DNA of 64,000 nucleotides. Source: Methanohalobium evestigatum Z-7303 (lineage in GTDB: Archaea > Halobacteriota > Methanosarcinia > Methanosarcinales > Methanosarcinaceae). The DNA lies in NCBI RefSeq assembly GCF_000196655.1, contig NC_014253.1, positions 558,001 to 622,000 on the forward strand, read 5' to 3'. The translations under genes were made by a program, and so were the position numbers. The notes beneath the pieces were generated by a model. It had not been told where the DNA came from. It saw only the letters and a list, made by a program, of their open reading frames with translations, and made no database searches. Below, in pieces: positions 21,692 to 23,152 of this stretch; positions within the stretch are counted from its first letter, which is position 1, and every line of letters begins with the position of its first letter.

Positions 21692-22159
21692 ATGGCTGAC
21701 TGGATTTCTCGTTTAAATAAAATACTTGAAGGAAAAGAAAACAAAGAAAAAACCTCTTTAGAATCAAGCACCTCGGATGCAGATACAAGGTATCAAATAA
21801 TCGGTTTTATTGAAAACGCAGTAATTCCAGCATTTACAGAACTCAAAAAAGAACTCGAAAACAAAGGTCGTAAAGTTGTTATAGATGAACCTGAAGACCT
21901 TGAAGACAGGTCCTCAATAACCGCATCTATTACTGTTTACAAAGATGATGAAGAAGAATTCTATTATGCTATACAAGGAAAACCCTATCAGAAAATGAAT
22001 TTTGCTTTTCCATATCAACCGGATGACAAACCAAGTTACTGTAAGGCTGTAATTCTTTTAAGAAGTGGTGTTCAGGGTAAAATAGACATAAAAAAATATT
22101 CAAAAGAAGATATAATTCAAAACTTTTTAGATGAATATTCAAAATGGATTATTTTTTAA
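21692..22159 (+). CDS. Hypothetical soluble protein
   Basis: A 155-residue protein I do not recognise. The N-terminal 35 residues are charged and low in complexity (ILEGKENKEKTSLESSTSD), followed by a compact alpha/beta part with many aromatic residues (EEFYYAIQGKPYQKMNFAFPYQ). No signal peptide or membrane segment. CAGGAG precedes the ATG. It ends four bases before the convergent marker 12 gene. Confidence 0.6.
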   Translation: MADWISRLNKILEGKENKEKTSLESSTSDADTRYQIIGFIENAVIPAFTELKKELENKGRKVVIDEPEDLEDRSSITASITVYKDDEEEFYYAIQGKPYQKMNFAFPYQPDDKPSYCKAVILLRSGVQGKIDIKKYSKEDIIQNFLDEYSKWIIF

Positions 22160-22162
22160 TTT

Positions 22163-23152
22163 TTAATAGTTGACATCCAGCCCAAGAATTTCTGTTGCAC
22201 CAGAAACAATATCTCTGGCAATTTCTGCACATCCTATAGCTGCACTCCATCTGCCAAGAACATAAGGCTTTATACCAAGATGGTAATGGATTTTATCAAC
22301 TACATATTCTACCTCACCAACTGAACCTGCAAGATATATATTACCTTCCAGTTCAGGTTTCAAATCAGAGAGTAATACCTATATACTTTTAATTTCCATT
22401 GCAGCAAAAAGTGATATTGTATCAAGTGCAAGAACTGCTTCAGGATTATTTTTATCGACTGCATCAAGTAGAGTTTGCAAATCAGTATACAGTGTACGTT
22501 TCAATACACCAGCGTTCATGAACGCTTCGTTTGCTGAATATAAGCCCGAATCAACATCTCGTATAGCCTGCAAATCCATTGGACCATGCTGTAAACCGGG
22601 TGCAAAAATACAAGCATCAATTGCACCTGCAATTTTTTTATTTGATACACCCAATGTAACTGTATTAGAACTAATATCTGAAACGATAAAATCATCATCA
22701 TGATTGAGGCATCGGGCATGGTATGCTATACCCACTTTTTCAGGGCTGGTAGAGTGTGAAAATATATTCATACGCTGGTCTGTATTACTTCCTGTATGTA
22801 TACCGGGAATTACCACTGCAGGAATGTCTGAATTTTTGATTGCATCAAAAATTTTTGCTCCCCCTCCTGTTTTTTTACCTGCCCCTTCGATACTTCTAAC
22901 ACCTCTTGAATCAACATTTTTAATATTCTCGATACTGTTGATATCATCGCCCATTGAATATGTGACAGCCATAAGTTCAACATTCTCTTTACTAACATCA
23001 AAGCTATCCATAATGTAGTCAATAATATCAGATTCGTTCATAGATGCAGCATTGTCACGGGGCAATTCAAACCTGTAAGAATCAGTATCTTCATCCTCTG
23101 TAATAGATGCAAAGCGTATTGCATTTGTACCATGATCAATACCGATAAACAT
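22163..23152 (-). CDS. mmp12: Methanogenesis marker protein 12 with an internal TAG codon (possible pyrrolysine)
   Basis: The frame starts MFIGIDHGTNAIRFASI, an actin/hexokinase-type (ASKHA) nucleotide-binding signature, and runs 257 codons to TAG (22381-22379), then continues in the same frame (VLLSDLKPELEGNIYLAGSVGE) for 71 more to TAA at 22163. The downstream part completes the ASKHA fold (LAGSVGEVEYV and the C-terminal RWSAAIGCAEIARDI), so a full protein of 329 residues needs TAG read as an amino acid. TAG decoding as pyrrolysine is established in Methanosarcinaceae; whether it occurs here is inference. The alternative is a recent nonsense mutation. Confidence 0.82.

Follow-up and report, generated by a model that had tools for sequence, protein, structure and literature searches.

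The methanogenesis marker 12 gene of Methanohalobium evestigatum is interrupted at codon 258 by an in-frame TAG, which raises the question whether the protein ends there or whether the codon is read as pyrrolysine (Pyl) and the frame translated to its end. The original prediction of a TAG at this codon, followed by 71 further codons of recognisable protein sequence, was confirmed on the minus strand of the window (the whole stretch of 64,000 nucleotides analysed here). The locus has the following features.

22163..23152, minus strand: methanogenesis marker 12 gene (TIGR03281; single copy), 329 codons plus TAA with TAG258 taken as sense
22379..22381, minus strand: in-frame TAG, codon 258, seen in the sequence; the surrounding 30-base stretch is unique in the genome
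22382..23152, minus strand: part before the TAG, 257 amino acids by ORF translation, the product if TAG terminates
22166..22378, minus strand: part after the TAG, 71 codons, conserved C-terminus (11 invariant columns in an 18-sequence alignment)
22313..22333, minus strand: LAGSVGE motif, with Gly276-Ser277 invariant in the alignment
22163..22165, minus strand: TAA terminator of the full frame, seen in the sequence

The marker 12 gene and its C-terminus

Starting from the ATG at 23152 (minus strand), the 329-aa read-through product matched TIGR03281 (methan_mark_12) over its full length, scoring 362.7 bits (cut-off 180.85 bits; profile positions 1-326/326), and one copy of the gene was present in the M. 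evestigatum genome. The fragment downstream of the TAG lacks an ATG start, its first listed start being a TTG. Three bases separate the marker 12 TAA from the end of the convergent neighbouring gene at 22159, and the post-TAG stretch is therefore free of overlap with that gene.

An open frame after the TAG is unremarkable by itself, since 49 of 632 TAA- or TGA-ended ORFs had at least 71 open codons past the stop. What is beyond chance, judged by the alignment, is that the post-TAG codons match the C-terminal part that the marker 12 family conserves. Because the last 71 residues carry the 11 invariant columns, including the Gly-Ser of LAGSVGE, the 257-aa product is probably non-working. Compared with G029, the sister Methanohalobium genome, M. 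evestigatum had 18 synonymous and 9 non-synonymous differences before the TAG (rate ratio 0.14). After it there were 9 synonymous and 2 non-synonymous differences, giving a rate ratio of 0.07. This ratio comes from 11 changes, and roughly half of these presumably belong to the sister lineage. The low post-TAG ratio supports read-through, short of proof.

The position of LAGSVGE in the protein may resemble that of the ASKHA adenosine motif. The match of marker 12 to DUF1464 was weak and under the cut-off, a profile search for relatives with solved structures gave no credible match, and a single-sequence structure model had a pLDDT of 33 and was set aside. When the surroundings of the TAG were scanned with Rfam for a Pyl insertion element, just weak, snoRNA-like chance matches came up.

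Pyrrolysine genes and the use of TAG as a terminator

The M. evestigatum genome comprises 2,406,232 bases in two contigs (the larger of 2,242,317) and is 99.89% complete. It contains the full pyl set, the presence of which had been proposed as a check on the Pyl reading. The gene for tRNA-Pyl (pylT, anticodon CUA) adjoins pylS at ~300 kb, and pylB, pylC and pylD are consecutive at ~894-897 kb; PylS, PylB, PylC and PylD all scored far over their profile cut-offs. The separation of pylTS (~300 kb) from pylBCD (~895 kb) matches the published description of the archaeal pyl cluster as uninterrupted, M. evestigatum being the exception (PMC3941956). One in-frame TAG per gene was found in mtmB (two copies), mtbB (two) and mttB (one), and no second tRNA with a CUA anticodon turned up in the window or in the stretches sampled, which cover 36% of the genome. 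As in pyrrolysine-encoding genes, the marker 12 TAG is flanked on both sides by homologous protein in a genome with pylT, pylS and pylBCD.

A third MtmB homologue in M. evestigatum is without an in-frame TAG (L075, G000:C1:1469862-1471208). A non-Pyl MtmB homologue in Methanococcoides was recently assigned a role with tetramethylammonium and choline (PMC13044021). We also observed a divergent second aRF1-like protein in addition to the normal release factor (L173, G000:C1:957112-957900), which was present in G029 and G041 as well.

The original prediction also stated that all other gene ends in the window are TAA or TGA. This holds for ORFs of at least 100 aa: the 69 that do not overlap divide into 42 TAA, 26 TGA and a single TAG, that of marker 12. 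A census of 864 kb (36% of the M. evestigatum genome), limited to non-overlapping ORFs of at least 150 aa (n=640), gave 436 TAA, 199 TGA and 5 TAG stops. Four of the five TAG-ended ORFs are interrupted genes, namely MtbB, MttB, marker 12 and a SAM-dependent methyltransferase, and the fifth is a TnpB element; MtbB and MttB were named by position, as L099 (1950001-1970000) contains family matches at 1959336 and 1963899. Among ORFs of this length in the sampled 36%, none is clearly a cellular gene terminated by TAG, and TAG hardly serves as a stop codon there. The TnpB ORF (L071:18145-19377) ends at a TAG with a further TAG 12 codons on, and the same arrangement was seen in G029 (L174:1097-2329).

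True TAG ends, excluding interrupted genes and shadow ORFs, were few too in the widely sampled genomes G037, G081 and G033, so scarcity of TAG stops seems to be characteristic of the family and is strongest in M. evestigatum. The same TAG avoidance has been described before (PMC3941956). The idea that TAG depletion is unique to M. evestigatum was weakened by G081, from the Methanosarcina clade, in which TAG ends were also rare and the three TAG-ended ORFs of at least 150 aa in the sample were MtbB, MttB and an apparent shadow ORF.

Orthologues at codon 258 and the origin of the TAG

Marker 12 was present in 108 of 112 Methanosarcinaceae genomes, including 86 out of 86 of good quality. A full-length gene with an internal TAG was found in two of the 108, M. 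evestigatum and G037 (Methanohalophilus clade), both of which have pylS. The two TAG codons occupy the same alignment column on separate branches. In a tree of 47 sequences M. evestigatum grouped with G029 (CAG) and G037 with G032 (CAA), and the M. mahii group had AAA or AAT at this column. Elsewhere the codon was CAG in most genera, as in the same-genus G029, and AAA or AAG in others. Seven residue types were recorded at the column (Gln, Lys, Glu, Arg, Asn, Asp and Ser), and its entropy exceeds that of ~70% of columns. Nearby, residues 249, 252, 253 and 260 were invariant and 255, 258 and 262 variable, a pattern that suggests an amphipathic helix with 258 on its open face.

At a functional Pyl site TAG is conserved among orthologues, as in the methylamine methyltransferases. 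The comparison suggested with the original prediction, of TAG or Lys/Gln conservation among orthologues, showed that TAG is not conserved, the usual codon being CAG for Gln, with some Lys. The relatives have a variable ordinary residue, and the sister codon is one step off TAG, as for a near-neutral capture of the Thg1 kind. Because the usual codon is one transition off and TAG occurs in just 2/108 genomes, near-neutral capture is favoured over a functional Pyl, and Pyl258 is probably not catalytic.

We suggest that TAG258 is, with high probability, read as Pyl, and that a tolerant site changed here recently from CAG to TAG by a near-neutral transition. The reading of TAG as pyrrolysine put forward originally is well supported by the complete pyl set, the few TAG terminators, the conserved C-terminus and the independent TAG in the pylS-positive G037. 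A tRNA-Pyl (CUA), charged by PylS with pyrrolysine from PylB, PylC and PylD, would read the codon, and translation would yield the complete marker 12 protein of 329 aa, with Pyl as residue 258. This TAG would have originated from CAG (Gln) by one C-to-T transition postdating the split from the sister genome. It may have been kept both by a site that accepts many polar residues, including Lys, and by a lineage that has nearly abandoned TAG as a terminator. We infer Pyl as the inserted residue, the efficiency of its insertion and its near-neutral effect from these comparisons.

A fresh nonsense mutation, with translation stopping at the TAG, a dead or partly active 257-aa product and a decaying gene, would fit the occurrence of TAG in one Methanohalobium genome and not in its sister. 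The divergence between the two is too slight to reveal decay, and with about half of the 11 differences presumably due to the sister lineage a very recent silencing would be compatible. Against this, the 71 codons have no second lesion and 9 of the 11 differences are synonymous, and the single-copy gene is present in every good-quality family genome. In-frame TAG in mtmB, mtbB and mttB, its near absence from the ends of M. evestigatum genes and the TAG that G037 gained independently at this codon make silencing improbable.

That TAG recurs at a single codon in two genera stands out as the most unusual of these results. The recurrence could point to a selected role for Pyl258, in catalysis or in regulation via Pyl supply, since the same codon was reached twice independently. 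The chance is slim that selection for Pyl258 in halophilic methanogens accounts for the recurrence and links a core protein of methanogenesis with Pyl supply. The other sampled genomes have one of the seven ordinary residues at this column, and the sister gene has merely six CAG codons one transition from TAG, so that a coincidence is not very unlikely. A selected role is very improbable, and coincidence at a tolerant codon is the simplest account. A sequencing or assembly error hiding a true CAG, for which one C/T difference from the sister would suffice, is the least probable explanation, given a two-contig genome of such completeness, the same-codon TAG in the distantly related G037 and the internal TAG in another ordinary M. 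evestigatum gene, the SAM-dependent methyltransferase.

In the G029 marker 12 gene (L032:2020-3012) the TAA terminator is replaced by AAA; a TAG follows two codons on, and then 12 codons to a TGA.

Known Pyl proteins and further genes with in-frame TAG

Pyl outside the methylamine methyltransferases had been expected to be new, which is incorrect: such cases have been recorded for Thg1, transposases and a TetR regulator, and one has been proposed for citrate synthase (PMC2933860, PMC8211752, PMC3639795, PMC3017947). Among relatives, Pyl in ordinary genes already has a few precedents. According to PMC2933860 (citing Heinemann et al. 2009), Thg1, the tRNA-His guanylyltransferase of Methanosarcina acetivorans, has an in-frame TAG in this single species, and Pyl is dispensable for its activity. 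Marker 12 is similar in being a gene outside methylamine metabolism with a sporadic in-frame TAG. It differs in being another protein with a same-codon TAG in a second genus, and in that incorporation was tested for Thg1, whereas we infer it for marker 12. In Methanohalophilus mahii the needed citrate synthase gene was labelled a pseudogene for its amber codon, and Pyl was proposed in 2010 (PMC3017947). There too an amber codon in a needed gene was read as Pyl from sequence, though in a different gene and species. Marker 12 shares codon and decoding machinery with MtmB, MtbB and MttB, but in these Pyl is catalytic and the amber regular in the family, whereas in marker 12 the column is variable and the TAG sporadic.

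Kivenson et al., 2025 reportedly described a 'Pyl code' in archaea, with TAG standing for Pyl throughout. M. evestigatum would resemble it in having nearly lost TAG as a terminator and in Pyl scattered in ordinary proteins. No report of TAG in marker 12 was found in the literature searched, the 2025 work lying outside that search.

If TAG258 is Pyl, a protein of all good-quality family genomes depends on pyrrolysine in M. evestigatum. With each such codon, loss of the Pyl system and a return of TAG to termination would both become more difficult, and this would be a visible step in codon reassignment. Annotation that treats such genes as broken would overlook working core genes in Pyl-using archaea.

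The M. evestigatum SAM-dependent methyltransferase has its TAG at codon 193 (L093:10732-11535, G000:C1:1160732-1161532). Uninterrupted relatives, 62-66% identical, cover this site, and three of them read Glu, Met or Leu. From these alignments it is likely that this species has in the methyltransferase a second protein with Pyl that is not part of methylamine metabolism. Several other TAG candidates are not claimed. L085, L055 and L058 were without any family match, L091 had no family match across its TAG, and the TAG of L084 was covered by a TnpB profile alone.

In 184 kb of G037, three more genes had an in-frame TAG, each with a family match across it, and this genome looks rich in putative Pyl-containing proteins. 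They encode a protein of the geranylgeranyl reductase family (L101:15927-17129), a CbiZ/CbiS-like protein (L102:633-1757) and an HtrA-like protease (L108:867-2108). In G033, a transporter-like ORF (L136:11431-12297) runs for 288 aa to a TAG and is followed by 91 aa of in-frame transporter-like sequence.
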